A stretch of DNA of 35,003 nt from Halobacterium sp. CBA1126. Its GTDB lineage: Archaea; Halobacteriota; Halobacteria; Halobacteriales; Halobacteriaceae. Shown here one piece after another: positions 6,155 to 28,553 of the stretch. How positions within the stretch are numbered: position 1 is the stretch's first letter; the number at the start of each line of letters is the position of its first letter. The position numbers and the translations under genes are program-made. The notes under the pieces were generated by a model. It worked only from the letters and a program-made list of their open reading frames with translations. It made no database searches and was not told the DNA's origin. The stretch covers positions 1 to 35,003 of the forward strand of contig NZ_WPCF01000014.1 in NCBI RefSeq assembly GCF_009741975.1, read 5' to 3'.

Positions 6155-7087
6155 TTAGCCTCGATAGTACGGAATCGTCGCCTCAAGCCCCTCCGCAAAG
6201 CTAACGTCCGGGTCGTAGCCGAGGAGTTTTTCGGCTTTCGAGATGTCGGCGTGGGAGTGACGAACGTCGCCGGGACGCGGGTCGTCGTAGACGGGATCGA
6301 TGTCAGTGTCGAGGACGTCGTTGAGCGTGTCGACGAGCTCGTTGATCGTGACGCGGCCACCACAGCCAATATTGAACGCCTCGCCAGTCACGTCGCTTTC
6401 TGCGGCGAGGATGTTCGCTTGGACGGCGTTGTCGATGAACGTGAAGTCACGGGACTGCTCGCCATCACCGTAGATGACGGGGCGTTCACCGTCGAGCATC
6501 AGCGAGATGAACTTCGGGATAACCGCGGCGTAGTCGCCGTTGGGGTCCTGGCGTGGCCCATAGATGTTGAAGTACCGGAGTGCGGCGGTGTCGATGTCGT
6601 AGAGCTCGCTAAACTGGAGGGCGAGCTTCTCCGTGTAGTATTTCGAGAGCGCGTACGGGGATTCAGGCTGTTCGGTCATCGACTCGACTTTCGGGAGCTG
6701 CTCTGTCGAGCCATATATCGACGAGGAGGAGGCGACGACCGCGGTGTCGACATCGGCCTCGCGGGCGGCGTTCAGCACGGTAGCCGTTCCCGTACAGTTA
6801 GCGTCTGTACTGGTGACGGGGTCCTCGACGCTCCGCGGGACCGAGGGAACGGCTGCCTGATGGAAGACGTAGTCGACACCCTCAGTGATATTGTCGATAG
6901 TTTCGGCGTCACGGATGTCTGCCTCGTGGAAGGTGAAGTCGTCGTCCGCATGTAGAGATTCGAGGTTCTGTTCGCGGCCGGTTTCGAAATTGTCGACGCC
7001 GCGGACATCGTAGCCGCGGTCGAGCAGCGCGTCAGCGAGGTTCGATCCGATGAACCCCGCGACGCCGGTAACGAGTGCGGTGGGCAT
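6155..7087 (-). CDS. NAD-dependent sugar-nucleotide epimerase (SDR, GalE/WbpP-like)
   Basis: A 310-residue extended short-chain dehydrogenase. The NAD site is at residues 7-13 (TGVAGFIGSN), followed by DNF and DIRD nucleotide contacts. The catalytic Ser cluster is in VASSSSIYG and the Tyr-Lys pair in YALSKYYTEK. Later motifs RYFNIYGPRQ and GDGEQSRDFTFI are typical of UDP-glucose or UDP-N-acetylglucosamine 4-epimerases. The RQDPNGDYAAVIPKF stretch resembles the WbpP/TviC branch that acts on N-acetylated sugars, but sequence alone does not fix the substrate. With the UDP-sugar 6-dehydrogenase at 10258-11529 it could supply a hexuronic acid for the glycan. Confidence 0.9.
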   Translation of the reverse strand: MPTALVTGVAGFIGSNLADALLDRGYDVRGVDNFETGREQNLESLHADDDFTFHEADIRDAETIDNITEGVDYVFHQAAVPSVPRSVEDPVTSTDANCTGTATVLNAAREADVDTAVVASSSSIYGSTEQLPKVESMTEQPESPYALSKYYTEKLALQFSELYDIDTAALRYFNIYGPRQDPNGDYAAVIPKFISLMLDGERPVIYGDGEQSRDFTFIDNAVQANILAAESDVTGEAFNIGCGGRVTINELVDTLNDVLDTDIDPVYDDPRPGDVRHSHADISKAEKLLGYDPDVSFAEGLEATIPYYRG

Positions 7088-8159: not shown

Positions 8160-9608
8160 ATGACTAGCGAGAAAACTGACATTGAAAAACTGGAAGAACG
8201 CGTCGAAAAACTTGAAGAGCAACAGGAAGAGTTCACTGTAGAAGATGGCGATGGTGAGTCATGGTCGCTCACCGAATTGATGGACCGGTTCAGTATCAAG
8301 CGTCGAACAGCCCTCAAGGCAATCGGACTAGTCGCCATCGGGTACACCGCACCGCGTGCAGTGCTGCAAGCAGTGAGCGGGACCGCGCAAGCACAGCAGT
8401 CCACGGCCGATCTCACTGTCTCCGGCCAACTGGACGCTGGGTCGGTAAGTACAGATGAGGCATTCATCGGTTCTTCTCCTGTAGATAGACCGCTCATCTC
8501 AAACGGAGACACGACCGTGTATGTAGACCCTGATAACGGGTCTAACGACGGAGACGGGACGGAAACGGACCCGGTCGCAACCATTCAAGAGGCGGTCAAC
8601 AGAGCGCCGGTTTTCCTCCGCCACCAACACTACATCGACATTTCAACGGCCGCGTCGACGCCGACTACCTACGATGAAGACGTTATCATCAACGGGATTA
8701 TTTCTTCGGGGCAAGCATTTACCACCGGCGCAGGGGCTAATCCGGTCGAAGGTCCGGCCACGAATTTCCGAATCGAAGGTGACCCGGACGACAATACGGC
8801 TGTCACGGTTTCGTCCATCACTGCCGCAGGATGCACCGGTGTTGCAAGCCCCCATCTCAAGGACTTCACCGTAAATGGTATTTCGCCGTACTACGAGGCG
8901 AAACACGCGGTCGAGTTCTACGGCGGCGGCGAGTATCAGGCTTCGAATCTCAGGTTTGGGTCCAACGTGGATAACGGCATTCGTGCCTACGGGGCAATCG
9001 CTGAAGTTCGCGGCTGCGACTTTAGCAACTGCGACGAAGGCACAACGGCGAAGCGGAACGCCCAAATCCTCGCCCAAAATTGTTCGGGCACGCCGAACAA
9101 ATCCTACGTCGCACGTTCCGGCAGCACATTAGCGGTCTATGATGACGCTACAACGCCGACTGAGTGGCGGTTCGGAACCATCAACGGGGCGCGTATCTGG
9201 AACGATGACAAGCTGTGGTCCGGCAACAACAGTCGGGCATCGTTTATCCGCTCTGGAACTGTCTCGTCGAGCGACTTCGAGGAGTTCGTCGGGAACAACG
9301 TTACCGTCGGCGGTGGGTCCGACGAGACGATTTTTGACCTCTCCAATCCCGTGGACGTTATCAACGGGCAGGTGTTGGGGAACGCCCCCCGGAGGCTCAC
9401 GGCGACTTTCGCGGACGGGGCGGAGGAAACGGTAGCGGTAGACACGTCTAATGCATACGGCAGTGACGAAAACGGCGACGGTTTCGCGGTCCTATCGGTC
9501 CCGCCGTTGCATAACGTGACAAAACTCACGTTCAACAACGGGGTCGGGACCTCCACCGAGTACGGCTGGGCCGTGCAAACTGTAAGTTCCGCGTCGTGGC
9601 AGCCCTAA
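8160..9608 (+). CDS. Tat-exported, probably beta-helical surface protein
   Basis: A 482-residue protein with an unusual N-terminus: a 25-residue coiled coil (DIEKLEERVEKLEEQQEEF), an acidic stretch, then a twin-arginine signal at residues 46-78 (SIKRRTALKAIGLVAIGYTA, ending GTAQAQ). After it come a thrombospondin-like entry (VYVDPDNGSNDGDGTETDPV, then ATIQEAVN), typical of right-handed beta-helix proteins, and many short Gly/Asn-rich repeats. The end is beta-rich. I see no catalytic motif. AAGGA sits 5 nt before the ATG. It could be a secreted polysaccharide-binding or lyase-like protein, or a virus-related fibre; the first is favoured by the glycan genes around it. Confidence 0.7.
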   Translation: MTSEKTDIEKLEERVEKLEEQQEEFTVEDGDGESWSLTELMDRFSIKRRTALKAIGLVAIGYTAPRAVLQAVSGTAQAQQSTADLTVSGQLDAGSVSTDEAFIGSSPVDRPLISNGDTTVYVDPDNGSNDGDGTETDPVATIQEAVNRAPVFLRHQHYIDISTAASTPTTYDEDVIINGIISSGQAFTTGAGANPVEGPATNFRIEGDPDDNTAVTVSSITAAGCTGVASPHLKDFTVNGISPYYEAKHAVEFYGGGEYQASNLRFGSNVDNGIRAYGAIAEVRGCDFSNCDEGTTAKRNAQILAQNCSGTPNKSYVARSGSTLAVYDDATTPTEWRFGTINGARIWNDDKLWSGNNSRASFIRSGTVSSSDFEEFVGNNVTVGGGSDETIFDLSNPVDVINGQVLGNAPRRLTATFADGAEETVAVDTSNAYGSDENGDGFAVLSVPPLHNVTKLTFNNGVGTSTEYGWAVQTVSSASWQP

Positions 9609-9661: not shown

Positions 9662-10257
9662 ATGAAACGACGGACTCAGATTGCGCTCGTCGCGTTCGGC
9701 GTATTCCTGAGCGTTGCCGCCCCGTTATCGGATCGGTGGTGCTTTAGGACGGCAAGAGCGCTGGCTAGAACGTCGAATTCGATAAATCAAATGGTCCGGG
9801 GGTTGTCCTTGGTGAGTCCGTCGACTCCACCAACGAGAATCCCTAGCACGAATCGAACACAATCATCCTCGAACCGTGTGGTGAATCCCATTTGAAAGGC
9901 GACACAAGTCTTCGCGTCACACAATTCAACGGGATGTGAACAAACGCCACTAACATCGACGCGACGAATGCAACGCTCAGTATTCGGCCGAACGATAAAC
10001 CCGAGCTGGCCGTCCATGGCGGCGTCACAGCTGTCTCATACCGCGGCGACATCACGCTCGACGACAACGCGGTCGCCCTCGAATACTCAGCAAGTAGCAC
10101 GGGAACGATTACGGTCAACGCCCCCCGACGTGAACACGGGTCGAGCCGCCGCCACTACAGGCGGTAACGCTGTTGACTCCGAAACCACGTCATCAACCGG
10201 TATCACGACGATTTCCGTCAACTCGGCGACGAATGAAGATCTCGTCAAAGCGGTTGT
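9662..10257 (+). pseudogene. Decayed exported surface-protein gene
   Basis: It starts with a clean signal peptide (MKRRTQIALVAFGVFLSVAA). A missing base in the following C run shifts the frame, which then reads as coherent protein: GPGVVLGESVDSTNENP, KGDTSLRVTQFNGM, NATNIDATNATLSIRPNDKP and SYRGDITLDDNAVALEYSAS. That frame is broken by TAG at 9745, 9766 and 9844 and TGA at 9937. An extra C in the six-C run at 10121-10126 shifts it again, and it runs on as TTGGNAVDSETTSSTGITTI up to the end of the convergent dehydrogenase gene, which seems to have cut it off. It resembles the N-terminal region of a large cell-surface protein. Confidence 0.7.
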
Positions 10258-11529
10258 TCAAAGCCGGACGACGTGGTCGTCGTCCCGGTGGTTAGTCGCG
10301 TTCCGCGCGTCGAACAGGAGCGTCGACTCGTCGACGAGGCGGTCGACATCCAGCATCGAGTGATCCGTAACGATGAGGACGCAATCCGCATCGTTGAGCC
10401 GCGTGTCTGTCAGTGGGACCGACTCGTGGGTCGCTGCACCGACGTCGAGTTCGGGAACGTGGGGGTCGTGGTAGTCGACGGTTGCGTTCCAGTCGTCGAG
10501 TTCGGTAATGATGTCGATTGCCGGGGATTCGCGGATGTCCGAGACGTCGGGCTTGTAGGCGGCGCCAACGACGAGGACATTCGCGTTCGACAGCGCAGTG
10601 CCGCGGTCGTTGAGTTGTTCGACGACGCGCTGGACGACGTGCTGGGGCATCTCGCGGTTGACCGTGTCCGCGAGGTCGATAAAGCGCGTGTCGATGCCGT
10701 GCTGGTCGGCTTTCCAGGAGAGGTAGAACGGGTCGATGGGGATGCAGTGGCCGCCCAGGCCGGGGCCGGGGTAGAACGGCATGAAGCCGAACGGCTTCGT
10801 CTCGGCGGCTTCGATGGCGTTCCAGATGTCGACGTCGAGTTCGTGGGCGATTTGTGCGAGTTCGTTGATGAGGCCGATGTTCACCGCGCGGAACGTGTTC
10901 TCGAGGAGTTTGACGAGTTCGGCTTCCGTCGAGGAGTCGACGCGGACGACCTCGTCGAAGACGGGCGCGTAGAGCGCTTCCGCGCGGTCGCCACACTCCG
11001 GGGTGACGCCGCCGAGGACTTTCGGGATGTCCGTCGGGCCGTACTCCTCGTTGCCGGGGTCGATGCGCTCGGGCGAGAACGCGAGGTAGATATCTTCACC
11101 GACAACCGTCCCGTTCTCCACGAGGACGTCGGCGACGGCCTCCTTGGTTGCGCCCGGGTAGACGGTGCTTTCGAGGACGACCGTGCAGTCGTCGACGACT
11201 GGTGCAAGTCGTTCGGCAGCGTCGAGGACGTAGGAGAGGTCCGGCGTGTCGGTTTTCCGGAGCGGCGTGGGCACGCAGATGGAGACACCGTCAGCGTCCG
11301 CGAGCTGGTCGTAGTCGGTCGTGAACGTGAGGCCGTTGCGTGTGGCCTCGACGACCTCCTCGTTAGTGACATCGTTAACCGTGGATTCCCCCTTGCGGAG
11401 TCGTTCGACCTTGCCGGCGTCGACGTCAACGCCGACCACATCATAGCCTGCGTCGTGCATCGCGAGCGCCAGCGGTAGGCCGACGTATCCAAGTCCGACG
11501 ACGCCGACGCGCGTCTGCTCGCCTTCCAT
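10258..11529 (-). CDS. UDP-sugar 6-dehydrogenase (UDP-N-acetylhexosamine/UDP-glucose dehydrogenase family)
   Basis: A 423-residue enzyme that oxidises the C6 alcohol of a nucleotide sugar to a carboxylate. The NAD-binding motif is VGVVGLGYVGLPLALAM at residues 8-24, followed by GVDVD. The catalytic cysteine is in GPGLGGHCIPIDPFYL, with LLENTFRAVNIGLINE ahead of it and the C-terminal KPDVSDIRESPAIDII motif. The HCIPIDPFYL form points to the WbpA/WecC/TviB branch (UDP-GlcNAc or UDP-ManNAc) rather than UDP-glucose dehydrogenase; substrate not certain. A TATA-like box lies 25-32 nt upstream of the ATG, consistent with leaderless transcription. Confidence 0.92.
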   Translation of the reverse strand: MEGEQTRVGVVGLGYVGLPLALAMHDAGYDVVGVDVDAGKVERLRKGESTVNDVTNEEVVEATRNGLTFTTDYDQLADADGVSICVPTPLRKTDTPDLSYVLDAAERLAPVVDDCTVVLESTVYPGATKEAVADVLVENGTVVGEDIYLAFSPERIDPGNEEYGPTDIPKVLGGVTPECGDRAEALYAPVFDEVVRVDSSTEAELVKLLENTFRAVNIGLINELAQIAHELDVDIWNAIEAAETKPFGFMPFYPGPGLGGHCIPIDPFYLSWKADQHGIDTRFIDLADTVNREMPQHVVQRVVEQLNDRGTALSNANVLVVGAAYKPDVSDIRESPAIDIITELDDWNATVDYHDPHVPELDVGAATHESVPLTDTRLNDADCVLIVTDHSMLDVDRLVDESTLLFDARNATNHRDDDHVVRL

Positions 11530-11553
11530 ATACGCTGTCAGATACGCTACAAG

Positions 11554-11561
11554 CGTTTTAG
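11554..11561 (-). promoter_or_regulatory. TATA box of the UDP-sugar dehydrogenase gene
   Basis: On the minus strand CTAAAACG lies 25-32 nt before the ATG at 11529, the spacing expected for a leaderless haloarchaeal mRNA. Confidence 0.4.
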
Positions 11562-11632
11562 GGTGTCGTTACTCGAAACGGTGGCCGGTGTCGGTTTAGA
11601 GAATGAGGCTTAAGACACCGAGGGACATCGCT

Positions 11633-11639
11633 GGAGGTG
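11633..11639 (+). promoter_or_regulatory. Strong Shine-Dalgarno for the GT4 gene
   Basis: GGAGGTG lies 10 nt before the ATG at 11650 and pairs well with the archaeal 16S rRNA 3' end. It sets the start of the GT4 and is stronger than at most other genes here, which look leaderless. Confidence 0.55.
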
Positions 11640-11649
11640 TGACTAGTCG

Positions 11650-12771
11650 ATGACCGGCAGCGAGCGGCCGCGAGTCTTCCATCTGATTACGCGCCTGCTG
11701 AAGGGTGGCGCGGAAGCGAAGACCATCGCGACCGTACAGGGACTCGACGACTACGAGTTCACGGTCGGGTACGGCGCGGAGTACGACCAAGAGCAAGTCG
11801 ACCAACTGGAGCACGCTGGTGTCGAGACGAAGCGCTTCCCGCTGATCCGCCACTACAATCCCGTGACGACGGTCCCAGCGGTGCTGTCGTTGGCGTGGTA
11901 CCTTCAACGCGAGAACTTCGACATCGTACACACGCACAGCACGGAAGCCGGCATCATCGGGCGCTTCGCGGCGGCACTGGCTGGTGTGCCGAACATCGTA
12001 CATACTGTACACGGCGTGCCGTTCGCCGATGATCGTAGTGGCTTGTTGAATCGGTTTGTGCTCGCATGCGAGCGGCAAGCCGCAACGTACACGGACCGCA
12101 TCGTCACGAACGCGGACGTCATCGCCGACGACTACCTGGAGCGGGGCATCGGGCAGCGGGAACAGTACACGACCGTGTACAGCGGCGTGGATCTGGACGC
12201 GTTCGCGGACGCCGAGCCCGCCGACGATTTACCCGGGGAGCAGCCGCGCGTCGTTATGGTTGGGCGGCTCACGGACGGGAAAGGTCACGGCGTTCTGCTG
12301 GACGCCGTGGAGTCGTTGGGTGACTTCCAGGGATCCGTCTGTATCGTCGGCGACGGTTCGCTGTACGACTCGCTGGTCGCGGCGGTCGAGGACCGTGGGT
12401 TGGCCGAGGACGTGTTCCTGACCGGCTTCCGAGACGATGTCCCGCGTGTGCTTGCGGCGAGTGACGTGCTCGTCTTGCCGTCGTTCCGCGAAGGGACGCC
12501 GCGAGTAATCACGGAAGCGATGGCGAGTGGGTTGCCCGTCGTGGCGACTGACATCGCAGGGATTCCCGAACAAGTCGAAGACGGCGAAAACGGCTACCTA
12601 ATTCCGACCGGGGATTCGGACGCGCTGGCCGACCGGCTAGAGCGACTGCTGGCGGACGAGGAGTTGCGTGAACAGATGGGTGCGCGTGGACTAGAGCGTG
12701 CTAACCGGTTCTCCGTCGCGACGATGGTCGAGGAGCTAGACAGGCTGTACGAGGAGTTGCTGGCAGAATAG
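11650..12771 (+). CDS. GT4 family glycosyltransferase
   Basis: A 373-residue GT-B fold enzyme that transfers a sugar from a nucleotide donor to a lipid-linked glycan. N-terminal acceptor domain: FHLITRLLKGGAEAKTIATV and DIVHTHSTEAGIIGRF. C-terminal donor domain: RVVMVGRLTDGKGHGVLLDA, VCIVGDG and the E-x7-E motif in REGTPRVITEAMASGLPVV. Full length, no membrane segment. It is followed after 92 nt by a phosphodiesterase-like gene and then a deacetylase on the same strand, so an operon is likely. Sugar specificity unknown. Confidence 0.92.
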   Translation: MTGSERPRVFHLITRLLKGGAEAKTIATVQGLDDYEFTVGYGAEYDQEQVDQLEHAGVETKRFPLIRHYNPVTTVPAVLSLAWYLQRENFDIVHTHSTEAGIIGRFAAALAGVPNIVHTVHGVPFADDRSGLLNRFVLACERQAATYTDRIVTNADVIADDYLERGIGQREQYTTVYSGVDLDAFADAEPADDLPGEQPRVVMVGRLTDGKGHGVLLDAVESLGDFQGSVCIVGDGSLYDSLVAAVEDRGLAEDVFLTGFRDDVPRVLAASDVLVLPSFREGTPRVITEAMASGLPVVATDIAGIPEQVEDGENGYLIPTGDSDALADRLERLLADEELREQMGARGLERANRFSVATMVEELDRLYEELLAE

Positions 12772-12863
12772 CAGGTGCGGAACCGACGAGAGGAGAGCCA
12801 CGACGGGCGGACTTCGTGAGGGGAACGCAGACCATTTAGTCGTCGGCTGCCGAGTACGAGGAA

Positions 12864-14414
12864 ATGACGACGGTCGTGCTCGGGCTGGACGGGGGCTGTT
12901 TCGAGTTGATCCAGCCGTGGATCGACGACGGGTCACTCCCCAACTTCGCTACGCTGACCACAGACGGCACGTCGACGGACATGCAGAGCTGCCTACCGCC
13001 GGTGACGTGTCCGAACTGGCAGTGCTACGCGACCGGAACGAACCCAGGGAAGCTCGGCGTGTTCTGGTGGGAAGCCGTCGACGAGGACGAACGGAAGATA
13101 GAGAACCGGAGTGCAGCTGGCGACTTCGACGGCACGCACTACTGGCGCTTCCTCGACGGCGACGCCGCGGTCGTGAACCTCCCCACGTCGTACCCGCCCT
13201 CGGAGGTCGACGGGATTCACGTCGCCGGTGGCCCTGGCGCCGAACAGACCGGCTACACGTACCCCGAATCGCTGGAGGAAGACCTGGAGAGGAAGTACGA
13301 CTACGCCGTCCACCCGGAGAAGATGTCGCTGCTGTCCGGCGACAACCCGGACAACGACTGCGTCCCCGAAATCTACGACCTAATCGACTCGCGGTTCGAC
13401 GTCCTCGAAGACGAACTCGAGAGTGGCGAGTACGAGCTCGTCCACGTGACCGTGTTCTACCTGAACGTGCTCCAGCACTTCTACTGGGACATGGACGTCG
13501 TGAAGCAGGCATGGGAGAAAATCGACGAGCGCGTCGGCCGGCTGCTGGAGATGGACGAGCTCGATCACTTCGTCGTGATGTCCGACCACGGCTCCAACGA
13601 GATCGAGACGACCTTCCGCATCAACACGTGGCTGGAGCAACACGGCTACCTGCAGACAGAGTCGGGTATCAGCGACTACCTCCACAAGGCGGGGATTACG
13701 CAGGAACGCGTCCGGCCAGTGCTCGCGAAGCTCGGCGTGGAGTGGTGGGCCCGGCGACTGCTCCCAGAGCGCGTACAGATGCTGCTTCCCGACGATGAGG
13801 GTTCGGTCGACAAGAGCGCAAAAGGCGACGTTATCGACTGGGAGCGTTCACAGGCGGTCGCGAGCGGCCAGGGACCCGTGTACGTACTCGCCGACGACCC
13901 CGCGGAGCGCGAGGAAATCGTCGATCAGCTGATTGCCGACCTAGAAGGGCTCACTGACGAGGCCGGGAACGCGGTGTTCGACCAAGTGCTGCGTGGCGAG
14001 GACGTGTACAACGGTCCACACACTGGCCGCGGTCCGGATGTCGTGCTCGACCAGGCTGCCGGCGTCCACATCGAGGGGAAGATCGGGAACGACGACGTGT
14101 TCGGCGAGCCGAGCAAGTGGCACGGCGAGAACAAGGACACGGGGATGTTCATCGGGTATGGGACAGACATCGACGAGACTGCGGCGCTGTCGGACATGCA
14201 CATTCTCGATATCGCGCCGACACTGCTCCACCTCCACGGCGAGGACGTCCCGGAGCGAATGGACGGCGAGGTCCGCAGTGATCTCTTCGATGCGGAGTCG
14301 GAGCCGGCGAACCGCGACGTCTCGCGCGTCGACGTGGATGTGGGCAGCGCTGATTCACAGACTGTCGAGCGCGACGTGACCGACCGGCTGGAGAATCTCG
14401 GGTACATGGAGTAA
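12864..14414 (+). CDS. Alkaline phosphatase superfamily phosphodiesterase (NPP-like)
   Basis: A 516-residue metal-dependent hydrolase or transferase. Residues 4-10 (VVLGLDG, Asp9) begin the metal site. The nucleophile is the Thr48 of PPVTCPNWQCYATGTNPGKL, matching the type I phosphodiesterase/nucleotide pyrophosphatase pattern. VVMSDHGSNE (near residue 240) gives Asp and His ligands, and the C-terminal HILDIAPTLLHLHG gives a further His. No signal peptide, so it probably acts in the cytoplasm. It sits between a GT4 and a deacetylase, and a diverged paralog lies at 23269-24861. Possible roles are cleaving a nucleotide-sugar or lipid-linked phosphodiester, or moving a phospho-group onto a glycan. 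Confidence 0.88.
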   Translation: MTTVVLGLDGGCFELIQPWIDDGSLPNFATLTTDGTSTDMQSCLPPVTCPNWQCYATGTNPGKLGVFWWEAVDEDERKIENRSAAGDFDGTHYWRFLDGDAAVVNLPTSYPPSEVDGIHVAGGPGAEQTGYTYPESLEEDLERKYDYAVHPEKMSLLSGDNPDNDCVPEIYDLIDSRFDVLEDELESGEYELVHVTVFYLNVLQHFYWDMDVVKQAWEKIDERVGRLLEMDELDHFVVMSDHGSNEIETTFRINTWLEQHGYLQTESGISDYLHKAGITQERVRPVLAKLGVEWWARRLLPERVQMLLPDDEGSVDKSAKGDVIDWERSQAVASGQGPVYVLADDPAEREEIVDQLIADLEGLTDEAGNAVFDQVLRGEDVYNGPHTGRGPDVVLDQAAGVHIEGKIGNDDVFGEPSKWHGENKDTGMFIGYGTDIDETAALSDMHILDIAPTLLHLHGEDVPERMDGEVRSDLFDAESEPANRDVSRVDVDVGSADSQTVERDVTDRLENLGYME

Positions 14415-14415
14415 C

Positions 14416-15357
14416 ATGAGCGACGACACGGGCGTGTTCACGATTTCGCTGGACACCGAACTCGCGTGGGGCACGTTCGACAAGGGGAACGCCGAGCGGT
14501 ACGAGGAAGCGTACCGGAACACGCCGGAGGTCATCGACCGGCTCTGCGACTTGTTCGACGAGTACGAGATTCCCGCGACGTGGGCGGTCGTCTCTCACCT
14601 GCTGGAGGACTGTGACGGCGACCACAGCGACCGGACAGCGCCGGACTTCGAGTGGATCGACGACTGGTTCGGCGATCTGCCGTGCGCGAGCGGGATGGAC
14701 GAGGACCTGTGGTACGCGCCGTGGTTGATTGACCGGATTCAAGACTGCGAGACTGAGCAGGAAATCGGGCTGCACGGGTCGACGCACATGCAACTGGGCG
14801 CCGACGGCTGTTTGCGACAGCACGCCGAAGAGGAGATTGGGACTGCCGTCAAGACGCTGCGCTCGCACGGCGTTGAGCCGAAAAGCTTCGTGTTCCCGCG
14901 GAACGACGTCGGTTACGTGGACGTGCTCCGCGAGCACGGAATCGAAGCTTATCGCGGCGTCGACGCGCGCTGGTACGAGCGTGCGTCTGTGCCGAGTGCC
15001 GTGAAGCCGCCGCTACGGTTCGCCGACGAAGCGATTCGGGGGACACCACCAGTAGTCGATCCGGTGGAACGCGATGATGTGGTCGAGGTTCCAGGGTCGC
15101 AAGTGTTCCGCCCCTCGCACGACGGCTGGCAGTACACGCCAGGAGAAAGTAGTGTTGCGCGAGCGAAGAAGGGGCTTCGGCGTGCGGCTCGTACGGGTGG
15201 CGTGTTCCACCTGTGGTTTCACCCGTTCAATCTGGGGCACGAACCCGAGCAGGACCTGGAACGGTTAGAGCGCGTGCTAGCGGGAGTGCGTGACTTCGTC
15301 GATAGGGGGGAACTGGAGTGTCGACCGTTGAAGAGTGTATCGCCGGGCCGTCAGTAG
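14416..15357 (+). CDS. Polysaccharide deacetylase (NodB-like)
   Basis: A 313-residue carbohydrate esterase-4-like protein that would remove N-acetyl groups from a glycan or sugar. Motifs: SLDTELAWGTF at residues 10-20, with the catalytic and metal-binding Asp; IGLHGSTHMQL, with two metal-binding His; FPRNDVGY; and VFHLWFHPFNLG near the end. No signal peptide, so it may act on a cytoplasmic lipid-linked sugar. Only one base separates it from the phosphodiesterase stop, indicating co-translation. Confidence 0.88.
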   Translation: MSDDTGVFTISLDTELAWGTFDKGNAERYEEAYRNTPEVIDRLCDLFDEYEIPATWAVVSHLLEDCDGDHSDRTAPDFEWIDDWFGDLPCASGMDEDLWYAPWLIDRIQDCETEQEIGLHGSTHMQLGADGCLRQHAEEEIGTAVKTLRSHGVEPKSFVFPRNDVGYVDVLREHGIEAYRGVDARWYERASVPSAVKPPLRFADEAIRGTPPVVDPVERDDVVEVPGSQVFRPSHDGWQYTPGESSVARAKKGLRRAARTGGVFHLWFHPFNLGHEPEQDLERLERVLAGVRDFVDRGELECRPLKSVSPGRQ

Positions 15358-15370
15358 CGATAGCGACGCC

Positions 15371-16696
15371 TCACTTGTACCCGAGTGCCTTGAGACGTTC
15401 TTCTACGGCTTCGTCGTCGTCGATATCCGGAACTTCGACGTCCTCAGAGGTCTCTTTTATCATCTCGAATCGGTCGTTCAAGCGTTCACGGAATCGCTCA
15501 ACCGTTTCCGGATGCTGGTCTGCAACGTCGTTCGTTTCTTTCGGGTCGTCCGCGAGGTCGTAGAGATACTGGTCGTCGGTTTTGCCGTCGTAGAGATACT
15601 TCCAGCGGTCGGTCCGGAACCCAATCCGGAGGTAGTCCTCACCCCGGACTTCCTTCTCCGTGACGACGGCGTCGTAAGTCGGACTCTCTCCGTTAATGAC
15701 CGGGAGGAGTGATTCGCCTTCGAGACGTCCGGCCATCTCAGTCGAGTAGTCGGCGTCGGCGAGATCGAGCAACGTCGGGAGGATGTCGATGGTGCGGACC
15801 ATCGAATCGACAGTCGTCGGCTGGTCGATGGGAGCTGAATCCGGGAACCGGATCAACAGCGGGACTCGCGTGAGTTCGTCGTACGGGAGATTCTTGTGCC
15901 CGTACAGGCCGTGCTCGTCGAACTCGTCCCCGTGGTCGCCGACGACGACGATAGCAGTGTCTTCGAGCTCGCCGCGTTCCTCGAGCGTGTCGAGGAAGTT
16001 CCCAATTTCCCGGTCGAGGTACTCGACTTCCTTGCGATAGTTCGTCCAGAGTTCGTCGTGCTCGTCAGGTGTAATCTCGTCCGGAGCATTCACGGCGGCT
16101 TTCCGCCAGAGGCGCTCGGCGCGGAACTTGTTCCGGTACCCGAAGTCGTCGCCCGGGAGGTACGGGCCGTGGACGTCCATGTACTGCGTCCAGAGGAACC
16201 AGGGCTCGTCGGTCGAGCCAATCCACTCCGCGAGACTTCGGTTCACTTTCTCTGCCGGGAGGTACGGAGTCCGTCGAAGGATGCGAGCGGCCTTGTTCGC
16301 GTATCGGAGCAAGGAGTCCGGAGCGTTGTCGACGAGTCCGTCGGGGTCGTAGGGGAGGATGTTCTCCTCGAAAGTGTCGAACCCGCGGTCGAAGTTCCGG
16401 AGCCGGGAGACGTTCGGGTTCGAGTGGATCGCACCCGTAGTGTAGCCGTTCCGCTGGAACTGTTCGGCCATCGTCGGCTGGGCTTCTTCGAGGTACCAGT
16501 GGCCGCCGTAGTCCAACGGGTAGCGGCCGGTCAGCATCGCCGTCATCGAAGGGGCGGTGCTGATGCCCTGGGCGAAACACCGCGAAAACGAGACGCCCTC
16601 CTCGGCGAGCGCATCGAGGGCCGGCGTGTCGAACTCGTCGCCGGCAACCGCGTCGTACCGCAGCGAATCGACGACGAGAAAGAGGACGTTGGTCAT
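15371..16696 (-). CDS. Sulfatase-fold protein with Thr at the nucleophile position
   Basis: A 441-residue member of the sulfatase branch of the alkaline phosphatase superfamily. Metal motif VDSLRYD at the N-terminus (Asp10), VVGDHGDEFDEHG further on, and a C-terminal part with IGFRTDRWKYLYDG, a sulfatase hallmark. The canonical C-x-P-S-R core is here T-A-P-S-M in GISTAPSMTAMLTGRYP (Thr47). With no Cys or Ser to become formylglycine, true sulfatase activity is unlikely. Thr at this place is known from phosphoethanolamine transferases and lipoteichoic-acid synthases. No membrane segments. It converges with the deacetylase gene with a 13-nt gap. Confidence 0.88.
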   Translation of the reverse strand: MTNVLFLVVDSLRYDAVAGDEFDTPALDALAEEGVSFSRCFAQGISTAPSMTAMLTGRYPLDYGGHWYLEEAQPTMAEQFQRNGYTTGAIHSNPNVSRLRNFDRGFDTFEENILPYDPDGLVDNAPDSLLRYANKAARILRRTPYLPAEKVNRSLAEWIGSTDEPWFLWTQYMDVHGPYLPGDDFGYRNKFRAERLWRKAAVNAPDEITPDEHDELWTNYRKEVEYLDREIGNFLDTLEERGELEDTAIVVVGDHGDEFDEHGLYGHKNLPYDELTRVPLLIRFPDSAPIDQPTTVDSMVRTIDILPTLLDLADADYSTEMAGRLEGESLLPVINGESPTYDAVVTEKEVRGEDYLRIGFRTDRWKYLYDGKTDDQYLYDLADDPKETNDVADQHPETVERFRERLNDRFEMIKETSEDVEVPDIDDDEAVEERLKALGYK

Positions 16697-16735
16697 GTGG
16701 GCTCGTCTAGTCCGACTGCGGTAAAATGACTTGTG

Positions 16736-18013
16736 TCATCGCTGTTTCCAGCGAACGTCGAGTTCCACATTTGAGAGTCCGATGACAGCCAAGAGGAGGA
16801 GAATCGGGATGAATTGGATTCGCCGACGAACGGCAGCACCGTAGTTCATCTCGATAATCGAGTACGTGACGACACCGGTCAAAAAGTACGAGAGGAGAAG
16901 TCCAAGATAGTAGGGCCGGTCTTGGAGGAATACGATGCCGCGCCGGACGAACAGCGTGGCGACGAAGAGCGCGAGAGCGCTCATTCCGACGAACAGCTCC
17001 GTGATACTCTGGATATGCCACGGGAAGGGCGTATACAGGAAGTACAGGGCCTTCATCGGCGCATAGAGAATTACGTCCAGCCAGGTTTCGTAGTGGAGCC
17101 CGAGTAGATACACGGCGTCTCCGTGGGCGCGTCCGTACGCGAACGACTCCAGCGCAGCCGGAGAGAGAGTCGTACCGTGACCGGTGAACGTCTCGAAGTT
17201 GAGTACGAAAAACGCCAAGAACGGGAGGGTGAGAAGAGAGAGTCCAGCGAGATAGTACGGCTTGTCGCGAGTCTTCACGAGACTGACAAACCCGACAATT
17301 GCGGCAATTAACAGGAGGTTCTCCCTGCGGAGGGAGAACATCATAGCGGTGGCAAGGAATACAACAGTGGCTGTCGGAAGCGTGATGGAATCGAGCCACT
17401 GGACGGCTGCCCAGAGGACCGCCAAGAGGAGGACTGTGTGGATAACCTCACGCTGGATGACCACGGACCGGTAGACGATGGTCGGCCAGAAGAGAACGGC
17501 CGCAGCAGCCAGGACGGACGTTCGGCGGTCTGTAACGTGGCGGGCAATTCGGAAGGTCAGGTAGCCGACGAATAGGCTGAAGAACGCGATCCCGACGCGA
17601 CCGGCGACCGAGGACTGGCCGATGACGACGTAGAATGGAGCGAGCAGGTGCGCCATCAGCACTCGCATCGCTGTGAAATCGAGTCCGAGTGTGGCGAACT
17701 GGCCGTTGGACCACGCCGTCGCAAGTTCCATCGCTCGCTGATTGTGACCCGACGAGATCGGGACTGTGGGGAGGAACCCGACGACGGAGTCGAGGACGAT
17801 GAAAGCGAGCCGGAAGAGGAACGCGCCCGAAAGGACCGTCAGAAGGTAGTTCTGCAGTCGGTAGGCGGCGACGCCGAGTCCAGCAGTGAGGAGGGTGATT
17901 AGTGGGACTGTTGCTTCTGTTGGAAGGAGTGATAGGGCGAGGAACGTAGGAGTGACTGGCGCGACAAGCGGTAAGAATCTGCGGAGACGACGGTTGTGTT
18001 GGGTACGGATCAT
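16736..18013 (-). CDS. Polytopic membrane protein, GT39-like or polymerase-like
   Basis: A 425-residue protein with about 10-12 membrane helices. After two N-terminal helices there is an external loop (GHNQRAMELATAWSNGQFAT), then repeated helices, FSLRRENLLLIAAIVGF and a later loop around FETFTGHGTTLSPAALESFA. The layout resembles membrane glycosyltransferases of the dolichyl-phosphate-mannose type (GT39/GT83) or Wzy-type polymerases, but no decisive motif is visible. Same strand as the sulfatase-fold gene, 39 nt apart, so probably one transcript. Likely acts on lipid-linked glycans outside the membrane (inference). Confidence 0.7.
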   Translation of the reverse strand: MIRTQHNRRLRRFLPLVAPVTPTFLALSLLPTEATVPLITLLTAGLGVAAYRLQNYLLTVLSGAFLFRLAFIVLDSVVGFLPTVPISSGHNQRAMELATAWSNGQFATLGLDFTAMRVLMAHLLAPFYVVIGQSSVAGRVGIAFFSLFVGYLTFRIARHVTDRRTSVLAAAAVLFWPTIVYRSVVIQREVIHTVLLLAVLWAAVQWLDSITLPTATVVFLATAMMFSLRRENLLLIAAIVGFVSLVKTRDKPYYLAGLSLLTLPFLAFFVLNFETFTGHGTTLSPAALESFAYGRAHGDAVYLLGLHYETWLDVILYAPMKALYFLYTPFPWHIQSITELFVGMSALALFVATLFVRRGIVFLQDRPYYLGLLLSYFLTGVVTYSIIEMNYGAAVRRRIQFIPILLLLAVIGLSNVELDVRWKQR

Positions 18014-18234
18014 CTATAATCCATAAGGAAAGTCTATAGATATTCTTGCATAACTCTAGTTAATCAAGGAATGCGGGGTCGAGACGACGAAACTCTATTG
18101 TGATAATCATAGTAGGGAATTCTGACGACGTTAAATTTGCTATCCAAACTCAGGATCTCCGGTCCAACGACAGTGATAGTCCGCCAGAAGGGTCGAAGCG
18201 AATTTAAGTAGAGGATTGTAATTTCCTTCATACT
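18014..18234 (+). promoter_or_regulatory. AT-rich divergent promoter region
   Basis: No gene seen in 18014-18234. AATTTAAGT at 18201-18209 is a good TATA box 26-34 nt before the GT2 ATG, so the mRNA is probably leaderless. This is where base composition changes from GC-rich to AT-rich. Confidence 0.5.
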
Positions 18235-19137
18235 ATGACCAAGGTAAGTATTATAACTCCAACATATAACCGAGGGGATATACTACCTAGGGCTATTGAT
18301 AGTGTTCTCAATCAATCATTTGAAAATTTTGAGTATATTGTGGTTGACGATGCTTCAACGGACAGGACTCAAGCTATAGTTGAGGAATACGAGGATGACC
18401 GAATTAGGTATCTTCGGCACGAAGCAAATAGACGACAGGCGGCAGCAAGAAACACTGGTATTGAGGCTGCAAACGGTGAATACGTCGCATTCATCGATTC
18501 AGATGATGAATGGCTCCCCAAGAAGCTTGCCAGACAGATGGATGAGATCAGTCAACGAGATAATGACTGGATTGGAATCTATTGCGACAGCACGACGCAA
18601 CGGACCTCACGACTAAAGGAGGTAATCACTAAACTGTTCCCGTACGAGGTGCGTGAAGAAGGGCGAGAGGAACTCATGCGGGACATCCTCGCGATGCAGG
18701 GTAATATTTCAGCCGGCTCTAGTCTGGTTGTGCGTACTAATGTTGCGCGTGAGATAGGCGGTTTTGATGAGACGCTACCACGGCATGAGGACATCGATTT
18801 TGTACTCCGCTTACTCCAAGAAGGTAATTTAGCCTATCTTGATGAGGAACTCGTTATTGTTCATGAATCTCCTGATCCGACTGCAGAGCAGATCAAAAAT
18901 TCTAAGGAGATCTTATTGGATAAATTCGAAGAGGAAATTACCCAGATTGAAGAAAAAGGCTATCCTGTGCGAAGGTATCACCAGTTTCACTTAGCTCGAT
19001 GCTACTTTCAAGACGGGGAGTTCCTAGAGGGTATTCGCCACTTATCTGGATCAAAGGCGTCAAACCCGAGGCAATATATTCGGCTTCTTGTCTCTCTCCC
19101 CCAAGGTTTACGGCAGAAATATCCTCTAAAAAGGTGA
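18235..19137 (+). CDS. GT2 family glycosyltransferase
   Basis: A 300-residue GT-A enzyme: VSIITPTYNRGDILPRAIDS at the start, YIVVDDASTDRT with the nucleotide-binding Asp, ARNTGIEAANGEYVAFIDSD with the metal-binding D-S-D-D, and EIGGFDETLPRHEDIDFVLR, where the E-D pair is the usual catalytic base region. Soluble, with no C-terminal membrane helices. Codons are much more A/T-rich than in genes to the left, suggesting acquisition by transfer. Confidence 0.92.
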   Translation: MTKVSIITPTYNRGDILPRAIDSVLNQSFENFEYIVVDDASTDRTQAIVEEYEDDRIRYLRHEANRRQAAARNTGIEAANGEYVAFIDSDDEWLPKKLARQMDEISQRDNDWIGIYCDSTTQRTSRLKEVITKLFPYEVREEGREELMRDILAMQGNISAGSSLVVRTNVAREIGGFDETLPRHEDIDFVLRLLQEGNLAYLDEELVIVHESPDPTAEQIKNSKEILLDKFEEEITQIEEKGYPVRRYHQFHLARCYFQDGEFLEGIRHLSGSKASNPRQYIRLLVSLPQGLRQKYPLKR

Positions 19138-19316
19138 TGTTTCTACATCCACTTCAACCGGTTATTTGTTCTTACTTGGATAACTATACGATTGGAGTAT
19201 TTGTAATGGAATGCGCAGCCCAGCATAGTACTATTGTGGCACGTTTTTTTGACATCAGATAGTGCCGAACAACAATCACGCCACTTAACCAAGTTTGGAG
19301 AAATAGGATTCACTAA
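19138..19316 (+). other. Intergenic region with weak promoter
   Basis: AT-rich, no convincing gene. CTTAACC at 19284-19290 lies about 30 nt before the next ATG and may serve as a TATA element. Confidence 0.25.
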
Positions 19317-20442
19317 ATGACCGAATTAGACCCGGATGTTAGCCTATTTGTATCCTCACTAGCAGGAGGTGGAGCACATAAAATGGTGGTCCAGATTGCA
19401 AAAGGACTAGATGATCTTGGGTATACAGTAGATATTGTGGCTGTTACGAAGGAAGGACCATTTGTTGATAGCATCCCTGAAGATGTGGGAATAGTTGATT
19501 TAAATGCAAATCGAGCGCTAACAAGCGTGCCTAAGTTAACGCAATACCTGGCAAAGAACAATCCAGAGTCATTATTGGCAACACCAGTCAGCGTTACAAT
19601 TCCGGCAATTTGGGCCAATATTCTATCTCGATCAGATACTAAGTTAGTAATTCGAGCTCCGACCGTCATTTCCAAAAATGATTTTTATGCGAGGCCAAAG
19701 ACGTTAAATGACCAGATATTGTCGAGATTAGTTGACTATTATTATCCAAATGTTGACCATATGGTTGCAATATCGAATACCGTGAAGGAGGATTTAATTA
19801 ATAATATCGGGCTAAATAGAGATATGGTTACAACAATTTATAATCCAGTTATTGACGACGGAATTATTGCGAGAAGCAAAGAACCATGTGAACACCCATT
19901 TTTTTAATGAATCAGTACCAGTAATCGTAGCTGCTGGCCGGTTGACAGACGAAAAAGACCCAGACATGTTAGTTAAGGCATTTAACAAGTTGCTTGAACA
20001 GCGGGATGCTCGTCTAATACTATTAGGCGAAGGAGAGGATAGGAGAAGATTAGAGAATAAAATTGAGAATTATGATATTATTTCAAAAGTATCAATGCCA
20101 GGTTTCGTTAAGAACCCGTTCCGGTATATGCGTAGAGCAGACGTATTCGCACTCTCATCAAAATGGGAAGGATTTGGTAATGTTATTGTTGAGGCGATGG
20201 CGTGTGGGACTGAAATTGTAGCAACGGACTGTGGTGGGCCACGAGAGATTCTAGTTGACGGAAAATTTGGAAAATTAGTTGAAGTCGGAAATGCGGACGC
20301 TATGAGTGAAGCAATACTGGAAACCATTAGAAAAGATACGAGCAATCAGAAACTCATCTCCAGAGCAAAAGATTTCCACGTCGAGAAGATTATTAAGGAG
20401 TATGAATCGGTATTGGTGAATCGTTCTAATCTTTCATCCTAG
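19317..20442 (+). pseudogene. GT4 glycosyltransferase, frameshifted at a T7 run
   Basis: Two frames together make one GT4 of about 375 residues. The first part (19317-19907) has the acceptor domain (VSLFVSSLAGGGAHKMVVQI, then MVAISNTVKEDLI and IYNPVIDD). The second frame continues FNESVPVIVAAGRLTDEKDP, ILLGEGEDRRRL and the E-x7-E motif in WEGFGNVIVEAMACG. The break is exactly at T7 (19899-19905): with six T the reading is EHPFFNESVPV, with seven it stops at TAA 19905-19907. Nothing else is damaged. Either a phase-variable gene switched off, a recent mutation or a homopolymer sequencing error. Composition is AT-rich like the GT2 before it. Confidence 0.88.
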
Positions 20443-20623
20443 AAACTACAAAAGCTCGTGGGCCGATTGTTCTTTGCGGGATAAAGAGGATTTGGTCTGA
20501 ATATGGGCATCGTCGTGGACATCAATCCGTATTAGAGTATGGTGTCCAACGGAAGTCACGTGGTTGCCCGAGGTCGAGAATGTTGGTCATATCCATCGGA
20601 AACGGCATCTATATAGTGTTGTA
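20443..20623. other. Intergenic region between convergent GT4 genes
   Basis: No recognised gene. On the minus strand a short frame reads MDMTNILDLGQPRDF and stops soon after; it may be a remnant. I see no clear terminator. Confidence 0.25.
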
Positions 20624-21758
20624 CTATCGGATTTGATCATACTTATTTTCGAGTTCAGGTGAAAGATTGGTGATATCATGTCTATTTTGAATTCGTTCGA
20701 CACCAGCTTGTCCAAATTCCACCATCATATCCGGGTCACTTGCGAAGGTCTGGAGGGCTGTGGCAAGTTCAGAAACGTTTCCTGGTTGTGCGAGCAGGCC
20801 AGTTTCACCATCTGCAACGACATAAGGTATGTCTGCGTGAGTAGTTGTGACAACTGGTTTGCCAGATGCCTGAGCTTCAAGTAGGACAGTGGGGGCCCCT
20901 CCTTCGGAATCACCGGAGGCAGCTCGCTTACTAGGGGCGAGCAGAATACTACAGTCGTGGACCTCGGCGAGATAGTCGTTGTAGTCAAGATAACCGGTGA
21001 ACGTGACTTGATCACGAACACCAACTTCATCTGCAATAGATTCCAATCGCTGGCGACTATACTCTACATTGCCACCGACAATACGGAGTTCCGCATCAGT
21101 ACCAGCAAACGCGGTGGCGAACGCCTTGATGCCGTCCGGGAGGCCCTTTTTTTTCGACAAAACGTCCAACCATTAGTACGCGGAGTGGTGAGTCTGGGTC
21201 AGGATATTCTGGGGTGATTCGGGACGTGTCAATCGCGATTCGCTGAATCAGGGTTTTTGATTTCGGACATCCTAGATCAAGGAGCTTTTCTTGCATAGAC
21301 GGCCCTTCAACAAGAAAAAGGTCTCCCTGTTCAAACAGATCCCGATAATTAGCGCGCATTTCATCATTTTCTTTTACCAGACGTGAAGCATCATAGCCGT
21401 AAAATGAAGTAACAAGTTTGCGTTCCGGCTTCCGGTGTTGGGAAAGGCGTACTCCATTCGGACCGAAATGGGCGTGTATGATATCAGGGTCGTGGCGTTC
21501 GATGATGCGGCGATAGTACGTATCATAAAGTTCATAGATATCGAGTTTTGCGAGAATCCCGTATGTCCAGAACCGTGGACTCCACCGAGGAAGGTCCATA
21601 AAAATCTCACGTGGCTCAAACTCGAAGAGATCAAGGTTTTCACTAAATGTACCACAAACAAACGGATCGTATCGATTATGGTGAGAGAGGTATTGATAGA
21701 TGAACGTCTCCGTTAGTGGGAGATAGCTGGTGACGAAGTGGCCAACGGAGTTACTCAT
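20624..21758 (-). pseudogene. GT4 glycosyltransferase, frameshifted at an A8 run
   Basis: One GT4 of about 378 residues in two frames. N-terminal part (from ATG 21758): VGHFVTSYLPLTETFIYQYL, DIIHAHFGPNGVRLS and LRVLMVGRFVEKKG. C-terminal part: LPDGIKAFATAFAGTDAELR, VTFTGYLDYNDYLAEVHDCS and the E-x7-E motif in EGGAPTVLLEAQASGKPVV. The shift lies in the run of eight A on the coding strand (T at 21147-21154): seven A give FVEKKGLPDGIKAF in one frame. As in the previous GT4, the lesion is one extra base in the longest homopolymer. It overlaps the upstream aminotransferase gene by 8 nt. Confidence 0.88.
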
Positions 21759-22881
21759 TTGCTGCGGAACGAAGTGCTGCGATGACGGTTTCCTGCTCGG
21801 TATCGGTCATTCTCGGGAACATCGGTAGTGAGAGAATTTCATCGTACAGGTCATCAGCCGTGTCATGATTCCCGCAAACGTCCCCGTAATAAGAAAGCTC
21901 GGAAATAGGCGGGTAGTGGACGCCAGTGACGATGTCGTTCGTCGAGAGGTGGTTGTATAATGATTGGCGAGTCAGAGGGTAGTCGTCAGTTACACGAACG
22001 ACAAAGAGATGAAAAACGTGGTCAGCAAACGAATCTGAATCGCCCACCCACTCAAGTCCGGGAATATCTTCAAGCGCAGCAAGGTACTGCTGAGCGACCT
22101 CCCGTCGATTATCATTCATTTCCGGAAGACGCTCCAACTGGCTCCGCCCCATCACAGCTTGGATCTCGCTCATCCGAAAGTTGAAGCCAAGCCCATCGAC
22201 GTCGTATCCCCAGTTATCTTGTTTCTCGTCCGGTGATTTCGTCTGATGGTGGTTCCGAAGCTTTCGGACTCGATCCGCAAGGCTGTCGTCATTCGTGACG
22301 ACCATGCCTCCTTCCCCCGTCGTCATATTCTTCGTCGCGTAGAAACTGTAGCAGCCTGCGTCCCCAAACGACCCGACCGGCTCACCAGCGATCGACGCGC
22401 CCGGTGCATGGGCGCAGTCTTCGATGACGGCCGCTCCGTGCTCATCGGCGAGCCGGCAGATTTCGGGCATGTCAGCCGGTAACCCATACAGGTGAACTGG
22501 GATCACGGCTGCGACGTCGTACCGCTCAAGCTGTCGCGCCAGACTCTCTGGGTCCATGTTCCCCGTCTCAGTGACATCACAGAGAACTACGTTGGCATCC
22601 AGCAGCCGAACAACGTTCGCGGTAGCCGAGAACGTCATCGCAGGCACGACAACCGTATCGCCATCACCGACACCGAGAGTCCGCAGGCACGTATAGAGGG
22701 CAGACGTACAGGAGTTCACTGCAATTCCGTGCTCACTGGAGTGCGCCGTCGAGAACTCGTCCTCAAACGACCTCGTTTTCGGCCCGAGTGTCAGCCAGCC
22801 GGACGCGAGGACGTCCCGAATTCCATCGATAACCTCGTCCCCGATGACATTCTCCGGCTTATATAGGGGGACTGAAACCAT
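21751..22881 (-). CDS. DegT/DnrJ/EryC1/StrS sugar aminotransferase
   Basis: A 376-residue PLP enzyme that adds an amino group to a keto-sugar nucleotide (4-amino or 3-amino sugar). Motifs: VNSCTSALYTCLRTLGVGDG, VVPAMTFSATANVV, VIEDCAHAPGA, the PLP lysine in CYSFYATKNMTTGEGGM, and FNFRMSEIQAVMGRSQLERL. Full length. Its stop lies inside the start of the GT4, so both are one transcript. The keto-sugar supplier could be RmlB or the SDR epimerase; the exact product is unknown. Confidence 0.92.
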   Translation of the reverse strand: MVSVPLYKPENVIGDEVIDGIRDVLASGWLTLGPKTRSFEDEFSTAHSSEHGIAVNSCTSALYTCLRTLGVGDGDTVVVPAMTFSATANVVRLLDANVVLCDVTETGNMDPESLARQLERYDVAAVIPVHLYGLPADMPEICRLADEHGAAVIEDCAHAPGASIAGEPVGSFGDAGCYSFYATKNMTTGEGGMVVTNDDSLADRVRKLRNHHQTKSPDEKQDNWGYDVDGLGFNFRMSEIQAVMGRSQLERLPEMNDNRREVAQQYLAALEDIPGLEWVGDSDSFADHVFHLFVVRVTDDYPLTRQSLYNHLSTNDIVTGVHYPPISELSYYGDVCGNHDTADDLYDEILSLPMFPRMTDTEQETVIAALRSAANE

Positions 22882-23268
22882 ACCAGAAATCCACTACAGT
22901 GGACTCATAACTGTTTCGAATCCCATCCTTCGAACCGCACTTAACCATCAGAACTTGGCAAAGCAAGAAACTGCCCAACAGTGGTGGCTTATTGAGGCTA
23001 CTTTTTGGACCGCTCCTGTGATGTAAATTGTTTGTGAGTTGGAATGTAGTTTCGAGGTACTGGATTCGCCGTTTGAGACGCAACTAAGACAGGAATCTAC
23101 TTACTCGACTCTAACGTGAGGTGCACTACAACTACCGAAGATGTCTCCCGGAACAGGGATACGTTTCGCAGGCGCTAGTTATAAACTTCGCAAACCTCAC
23201 GTTCGCCCCGATAAGCAACGTCAGCTATTGAAAACGGCATTATCGCTGGGTGGGAATTCTCCACCGGA
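22882..23268. other. Intergenic region, mostly non-coding
   Basis: A TATA-like TTATGAG on the minus strand near 22907 may drive the aminotransferase. A 46-codon plus-strand frame (23141-23281, beginning MSPGTGIRFAGASYKLRKPH) overlaps the end of the convergent phosphodiesterase gene; I have no support for it as a gene. Confidence 0.25.
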
Positions 23269-24861: not shown

Positions 24862-24900
24862 GGATAATCACTCCATTACGTTGACGGACGTACCGAGCAG

Positions 24901-24910
24901 GTATAAATAT
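24901..24910 (-). promoter_or_regulatory. Strong TATA box ahead of the second phosphodiesterase
   Basis: GTATAAATAT on the plus strand (ATATTTATAC on the coding strand) is the best TATA sequence in the window. Its centre is 30 nt before the ATG at 24876, the spacing for a leaderless mRNA beginning there. Confidence 0.6.
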
Positions 24911-24936
24911 TCACGGTGTCAATTCGACTTAACAGG

Positions 24937-26445: not shown

Positions 26446-26587
26446 GGATACCTATCTATGTCGAGTGCGAAGTAATAAATGCACATATCCAAGGAGAGTA
26501 CCCCCAGTGATCGTCGGAGCGCTCGTCTTCTAAGGGGCCAGATATTGGTACTGTTCAGATAATGACCCTCTCGACAGCCTTCTCTAA

Positions 26588-27229: not shown

Positions 27230-27350
27230 TATAATAGGTTTCCTCGCGCCACTTTCTCCATGTCCACAGCTTTCGCAATCATACCCACGGTGAAAATGAC
27301 ATTACCATTACGCATATTGCGTGCCGTCGTACTCCGGACGAATGACACCC

Positions 27351-28310: not shown

Positions 28311-28461
28311 ATTACAGTAGCGGAGTTTGGCAGAGTTAAAACCTCAGATTCTAAGCTCTAGGCAACAAATCCACCACTCGCCGACGAAACGTTGTTGTAT
28401 GCATTAGTCCAGGCCATGGTTCTGTTATGACCGCTGGGGAGAGTGATTTCTGAATGACGCC

Positions 28462-28511
28462 ACTCAAGAGTCCTGTGTCGCCCCTCCCTATCTGAACACC
28501 GCCTCTTGAGT
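28462..28511. repeat. 9-bp inverted repeat upstream of rmlA
   Basis: ACTCAAGAG (28462-28470) and CTCTTGAGT (28503-28511) are perfect reverse complements with 32 nt between. The right arm ends about 42 nt before the rmlA ATG, next to a weak TATA-like stretch (AGAAAGATAG), so it may be an operator. The rest of 28311-28553 holds no gene that I can see. Confidence 0.4.
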
Positions 28512-28553
28512 AGAAAGATAGTTGTATCCCGTATCTGTGGCTAGTATCTAGTA

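Follow-up and report, generated by a model that had tools for sequence, protein, structure and literature searches.

The 35,003-nucleotide stretch of Halobacterium sp. CBA1126 analysed here (the window; contig NZ_WPCF01000014.1) carries a glycan cassette that includes two soluble proteins of the alkaline phosphatase (AP) superfamily, a sulfatase-fold protein with a Thr nucleophile (SULF) and a protein related to nucleotide pyrophosphatases/phosphodiesterases (NPPs) and to phosphonoacetate hydrolase (NPP-A). We propose, tentatively and at slightly less than an even chance, that the cassette makes and tailors an acidic surface glycan and that SULF acts in it as a cytosolic glycan sulfotransferase. 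SULF and NPP-A are probably Thr-based glycan decorators working inside the cell, with addition of sulfate as the group transfer and phosphate less likely. An original prediction for this DNA had pictured three AP proteins that transfer or remove phosphodiester groups on lipid-linked glycans; cytosolic, probably lipid-linked, glycan tailoring remains a fair description, given that the proteins are soluble, Thr-based and set within a glycan cassette.

Nucleophile and ligand residues

As had been predicted, all three AP proteins encoded in the window, the third being a second NPP-like protein (NPP-B), have Thr at the nucleophile position (T47 in SULF, T48 in NPP-A and T46 in NPP-B). The motif T-A-P-S-M of SULF does stand in place of the sulfatase C-x-P-S-R, but it is not the peculiarity it had seemed: among 81 homologues with a readable column the residue is Thr in 76, Ser in 3 and Cys in 2, and among 77 homologues from all bacteria and archaea, recruited by peptides that exclude the nucleophile, it is Thr in 74, Ser in 3 and Cys in none. 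D10, H176, D254, H255 and H267, which together with T47 make up the conserved residues of SULF, are nearly invariant in the latter sample, and the close orthologues all retain T47 within TAPSM or TAPAM. In a tree of 93 proteins these orthologues make up a single group with good support, and the two Cys proteins cluster outside it on long branches that leave their placement unsure. A Cys-to-Thr exchange as a special event of the SULF gene is ruled out, since the whole family is of the Thr type.

In 26 of 26 relatives the first-metal ligands and nucleophile of NPP-A (D9, T48, D241 and H242) are unchanged, and the same 26 have Asn (N201) where the second-metal Asp would be. An invariant N423 occupies the position of the NPP HGYDN motif, as placed by motif and not by a solved structure. 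Together, N201 and N423 make canonical NPP chemistry doubtful. No hydrophobic segment is found in SULF, NPP-A or NPP-B (the highest mean hydropathy over 19 residues is about 1.0), and all three are predicted to be cytosolic proteins without a membrane helix, in agreement with the original prediction.

Fold comparison with known AP-superfamily enzymes

The AlphaFold models of SULF and NPP-A have a mean predicted local distance difference test score of 89 and 86, respectively. A structural comparison with EptA, LtaS and NPP had been suggested as a check, and when run for SULF and NPP-A it bore out the NPP likeness of NPP-A. The nearest folds to SULF in Foldseek are dimeric sulfatases, choline sulfatase and phosphonate monoester hydrolases, with E-values of about 1e-25 and query-normalised TM-scores of 0.67-0.75 for the S1 sulfatase/phosphonate monoester hydrolase structures 4upl, 4uph and 2vqr; EptA and LtaS are missing from the best 50 fold matches and are ruled out as its nearest relatives. 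The membrane anchor with outward-facing catalytic domain of LtaS and EptA likewise has no counterpart in SULF or NPP-A. SULF resembles the S1 sulfatases in its PF00884 and SGSH_C domains but differs from them in having Thr for the Cys/formylglycine, Met for the Arg of C-x-P-S-R, D-S rather than D-D, and His267 close to where the sulfatases carry Lys.

The formylglycine-generating enzyme (PF03781) has no match in the genome of the window (87% complete) or in that of a member of the same genus (G293), anSME not having been searched for; it matches in just 2 of 15 genomes and is missing from 12 of the 14 searched besides that of the window. T47, in a genome with no match to this Pfam model, rules out an S1 formylglycine sulfatase as the identity of SULF.

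The best Foldseek matches of NPP-A are PhnA (phosphonoacetate hydrolase, 1ei6) and NPPs. NPP-A shares the fold and the first-metal ligands D, T, D and H with 2gsn and 1ei6, whereas Asn201, the lack of an HGYDN-like motif and the cytosolic location set it apart, at 13-14% identity in the structural alignment.

Evidence bearing on sulfate

The only genetically tested haloarchaeal comparators that we found are two AP-fold proteins of a Halobacterium salinarum glycan cluster, the membrane-bound VNG1056C (Agl30) and the soluble, arylsulfatase-annotated VNG1057C (Agl31) (PMC11980604). Deletion of both lowers the sulfated tetrasaccharide more than 300-fold, and each protein sulfated the Hfx. volcanii glycan on heterologous expression; nucleophile, metal and donor are not discussed in that work (PMC11980604). 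The sulfotransferase families Sulfotransfer_1 (PF00685) and Sulfotransfer_3 (PF13469) have no match in 25 and 15 haloarchaeal genomes, respectively, so that sulfation in the genomes tested needs another enzyme. SULF orthologues of at least 55% identity are found in 11 of 292 genomes, including 3 of the 8 sampled genomes of the genus that contains Halococcus morrhuae (p 0.002), H. morrhuae itself being a carrier, and Halococcus has a wall of highly sulfated polysaccharide (PMC13321033).

The proposed sulfotransferase reading of SULF rests on the Agl30/Agl31 genetics, the Halococcus enrichment and the missing Sulfotransfer_1/_3 families, taken with the Thr nucleophile in a genome without a formylglycine-generating enzyme match and with the nucleotide-sugar dehydrogenase in the cassette. 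The sugars that bear sulfate in H. salinarum are uronic acids. Sulfate is also suggested by the genomic surroundings of SULF, which are rich in AP-fold genes, by the second Thr-type gene that adjoins it at five loci, and by the co-localisation of NPP-A with SULF.

Conservation of the cassette

NPP-A and SULF are real genes with orthologues at 55-98% identity. Positions 10243-17930 of the window are kept in G293 at 90.6% DNA identity, whereas 17930-28588, including NPP-B, is swapped there for other genes. Halobaculum gomorrense (G063), a member of another family, has six genes in the same order (dehydrogenase, family 4 glycosyltransferase (GT4), NPP-A, deacetylase, SULF and membrane protein) at about 81% DNA identity, and a further genome (G093) has the first four only. 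The six-gene order in G293 and G063, with the first four genes alone in G093, points to a mobile cassette of two modules, which are GT4/NPP-A/deacetylase and SULF/membrane protein.

The single-base coupling of an AP gene to a deacetylase, noted in the original prediction, lies between the NPP-A stop and the deacetylase start and recurs identically in G063, G093 and G293, with a 4-base overlap in G199. A deacetylase lies within 1.5 kb in 9 of 29 other NPP-A relatives, and a GT4 gene lies beside or near NPP-A in G063, G093, G293, G179, G205 and G199. NPP-A relatives occur at most 15 kb from SULF relatives in 13 of 110 cases against 0.8 expected, an expectation that presumes random placement although glycan genes cluster anyway.

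SULF neighbourhoods are rich in GT4s, nucleotide-sugar enzymes and more AP-fold genes. A second Thr-type sulfatase-fold gene, of a clade marked by WTLPSH, directly adjoins SULF at five loci (L073-L077) in four genera and three families, and a homologue of the cassette membrane protein does so at L072, L073, L074, L077 and L078. A member of the WTLPSH clade is also present in two genomes of the same genus as the window (G003 and G012). The wider families annotated as 'sulfatase' and 'alkaline phosphatase family protein' are spread over 280 and 103 of the 292 genomes, and plasmid records give their relatives these generic names only.

Gene content of the window

The coordinates of the features are collected in Table 1. 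The dehydrogenase, a conserved cassette member, is by its family assignment the predicted supplier of uronic acid, and it is directly adjoined by the epimerase in G093 and G063. The deacetylase has the NodB metal motifs (SLDTE and HGSTH), and its PF01522 match is above the cut-off. The gene of the membrane protein shares the strand of SULF and lies 40 bases upstream of it; its product is a candidate GT-C glycosyltransferase or polymerase. The gene aglB is not in the window. Between the epimerase and the dehydrogenase, at 8160-9608, lies a gene whose product, of 482 residues, has an RR...GYTAP-type segment at its N-terminal end and matches nothing in Pfam or NCBIfam; G293, G093 and G063 lack this gene at that site.

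Table 1. Features of the glycan cassette and the adjoining variable island (positions in the window)
Feature	Position	Strand	Supporting match or remark
NAD-dependent nucleotide-sugar epimerase, TviC-like	6155..7087	-	best match NCBIfam TviC (NF011728), E 1e-74, under its cut-off
Nucleotide-sugar dehydrogenase (UGD; WecC/TviB type)	10258..11529	-	TIGR03026, E 8.9e-129, over cut-off
GT4 glycosyltransferase, TIGR03088-like	11650..12771	+	next to or close to NPP-A in six genomes
NPP-A, NPP/phosphonoacetate-hydrolase-like AP-superfamily protein, 516 aa	12864-14414	+	PF01663, E 2.7e-31
Polysaccharide deacetylase, NodB-type	14416-15357	+	PF01522, 1.9e-6; PF10096, 4.9e-7
SULF, Thr-type sulfatase-fold protein, 441 aa	15371-16696	-	PF00884, E 6.5e-48; SGSH_C, 1.7e-17
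Multi-pass membrane protein, PMT_2-like (weak)	16736..18013	-	PMT_2, 4.2e-4, below cut-off; about 10 hydrophobic segments
Split GT4	19317-20442		overlapping open reading frames 19317-19907/19852-20442
Split GT4	20624-21758		overlapping open reading frames 21096-21758/20624-21169
NPP-B, second NPP-like protein	23269-24861	-	42% identity to NPP-A over residues 1-516

NPP-B and the variable island

The original prediction had placed three AP proteins within 12864-16696 and treated them as one set. NPP-A and SULF do lie there, but NPP-B lies outside, in the variable island that holds other genes in G293, so that a three-protein set is wrong. The frame of NPP-B extends to 24861, where it has ATC in place of the ATG of its homologues; open reading frame finders therefore take an internal GTG (24519) as the start, and the nucleophile is lost. 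NPP-B may be a start-less gene or the site of a base error, and we read it as an extra, possibly decayed copy in a variable, partly broken island outside the conserved cassette.

Both GT4 genes of this island are split by frame changes, one of them at a run of T. On the minus strand at 27351-28310 the island also encodes a FemAB/GNAT-like protein (TIGR03019-like, below the cut-off), a candidate for aminoacyl transfer onto an amino sugar; N-glycyl-glucosamine occurs in the Halococcus wall. Beyond the island, rmlD (29808-30698, minus strand) has one in-frame stop and is 87% identical to the intact gene of G293. In that genome an rmlC-like gene comes next after rmlA, and the window yielded no relative of it. 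The pathway to rhamnose may, judging from these genes, be broken in this strain.

Discussion

We suggest that the genes at 10258-18013, together with the epimerase, form a mobile cassette for an acidic surface glycan. A uronic acid, perhaps of the N-acetylhexosamine (HexNAc) type, would come from the epimerase and dehydrogenase, and the GT4 and the membrane protein would assemble the glycan. SULF is pictured as a cytosolic metal-dependent transferase, its metal held by D10, T47, D254 and H255 with H176 and H267 assisting, which would most likely pass a sulfuryl group by way of Thr47 to a hydroxyl of the lipid-linked glycan, in the manner of the soluble Agl31. The deacetylase, which with NPP-A would make up a second tailoring module, may free an amine or expose an acceptor, and NPP-A would transfer or remove a group there, either sulfo or phospho. 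The gene content, its conservation, the nucleophile and ligand residues, the folds, the coupling and the co-localisation are observed; sulfate as the group moved, a Thr intermediate, and the donor and acceptor are inferred.

Several points weigh against this proposal. The likeness of SULF to Agl31 and Agl30 is drawn from described features and not from sequences, and the Halococcus link stands on three related genomes. To our knowledge, the known Thr nucleophiles of the AP superfamily act on phosphorus, and we found in the literature no characterised glycan role for relatives of NPP-A. Sulfate and phosphate shift a mass by 79.957 and 79.966, respectively, and the quoted mass-spectrometric precision of the heterologous Agl work does not separate the two; that the group in H. 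salinarum is sulfate is known, though, from nuclear magnetic resonance and earlier studies. On the donor side, matches to adenosine 5'-phosphosulfate kinase (PF01583) in 41 genomes, including that of the window and G293, are all below 30 bits and mostly cover part of a P-loop; the model does not discriminate, and the kinase was dropped as a marker of sulfating genomes. ATP sulfurylase (PF01747) has no match in 15 genomes, the CysDN route not having been searched for.

Hydrolysis, rather than addition, is an alternative, and the nearest folds are hydrolases throughout (sulfatases, phosphonate monoester hydrolases, PhnA and NPP). SULF would then hydrolyse sulfate, phosphate or phosphonate monoesters in the cytosol, and NPP-A would be a pyrophosphatase for nucleotide sugars or nucleotide by-products, with a part in editing precursors or in recycling products such as 3'-phosphoadenosine 5'-phosphate; the neighbouring glycosyltransferases could provide nucleotide by-products. 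We regard this as unlikely, because placement in a glycan-assembly cassette, over-representation in Halococcus and the Agl30/Agl31 precedent favour addition, and because the Asn residues of NPP-A make canonical NPP chemistry doubtful. That phosphoglycerol, phosphoethanolamine or sugar phosphate is passed by way of a phospho-Thr to lipid-linked glycans, in the manner of a cytosolic LtaS or EptA, seems to us unlikely as well, and a little more so. The D/T/D/H ligands and Thr nucleophile do resemble the ligand set of those enzymes, weak NCBIfam matches to the LtaS and EptA models exist, and the fold of NPP-A matches phosphodiesterases and PhnA. LtaS and EptA, however, draw on lipid donors at the outer face of the membrane, whereas SULF and NPP-A are soluble, and a literature search found no phosphodiester-bearing haloarchaeal glycan. 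With comparators that sulfate, enrichment in Halococcus, and EptA and LtaS not among the top folds of SULF, the phosphate or phosphodiester group of the original prediction has little specific support.

That SULF and NPP-A are ordinary, generically named relics of island turnover with no common pathway would fit the wide spread of their families and the broken genes of the neighbouring island (19-31 kb). It is nevertheless very improbable, since the six-gene order is kept in G293 and, across a family boundary, in G063, and since the catalytic columns are invariant and the one-base coupling is conserved.

Sulfated surface glycans of halophilic archaea have been known for decades, and just two haloarchaeal glycan sulfotransferases have been named (in 2025), both with the AP fold. 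Archaeal surfaces receive their sulfate without help from the usual sulfotransferases, and the cassette would bear on how this is done. If the sulfotransferase proposal is true, the Thr-type class, automatically annotated as 'sulfatase', would largely consist of transferases, many annotations would be reversed, and the question of the sulfate donor would be raised.

Among known systems, the eukaryotic N-deacetylase/N-sulfotransferase (NDST) offers a parallel to NPP-A and its deacetylase, in that a deacetylase is tightly coupled to a putative enzyme of group transfer on the way to an acidic glycan; the folds are unrelated, the polypeptides are separate, and the likeness is one of layout only. 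It is a long shot that the archaeal pair is a functional counterpart of the animal enzyme, in which deacetylation of a HexNAc(A) residue would free its amine for Thr-based N-sulfation from a donor other than canonical 3'-phosphoadenosine 5'-phosphosulfate while SULF O-sulfates, so that haloarchaea would build heparin-like glycans with wholly different protein folds. The closer parallel is with H. salinarum. Agl30 is, like SULF, an AP-fold protein of a glycan cluster, although it has a predicted helix (residues 21-39) absent from all three proteins of the window. The cluster of Agl31 differs in content from the window, which has a deacetylase, NPP and uronate enzymes and no aglB. Compared by description, Agl31 and SULF are both soluble AP-fold proteins of a glycan cluster with no membrane helix and a sulfatase-type annotation; both have a second AP-fold gene nearby, Agl30 and Agl31 appearing to be neighbours by locus number; and, as far as the translated published primer shows, they have a C-terminal LxxLGY motif in common.

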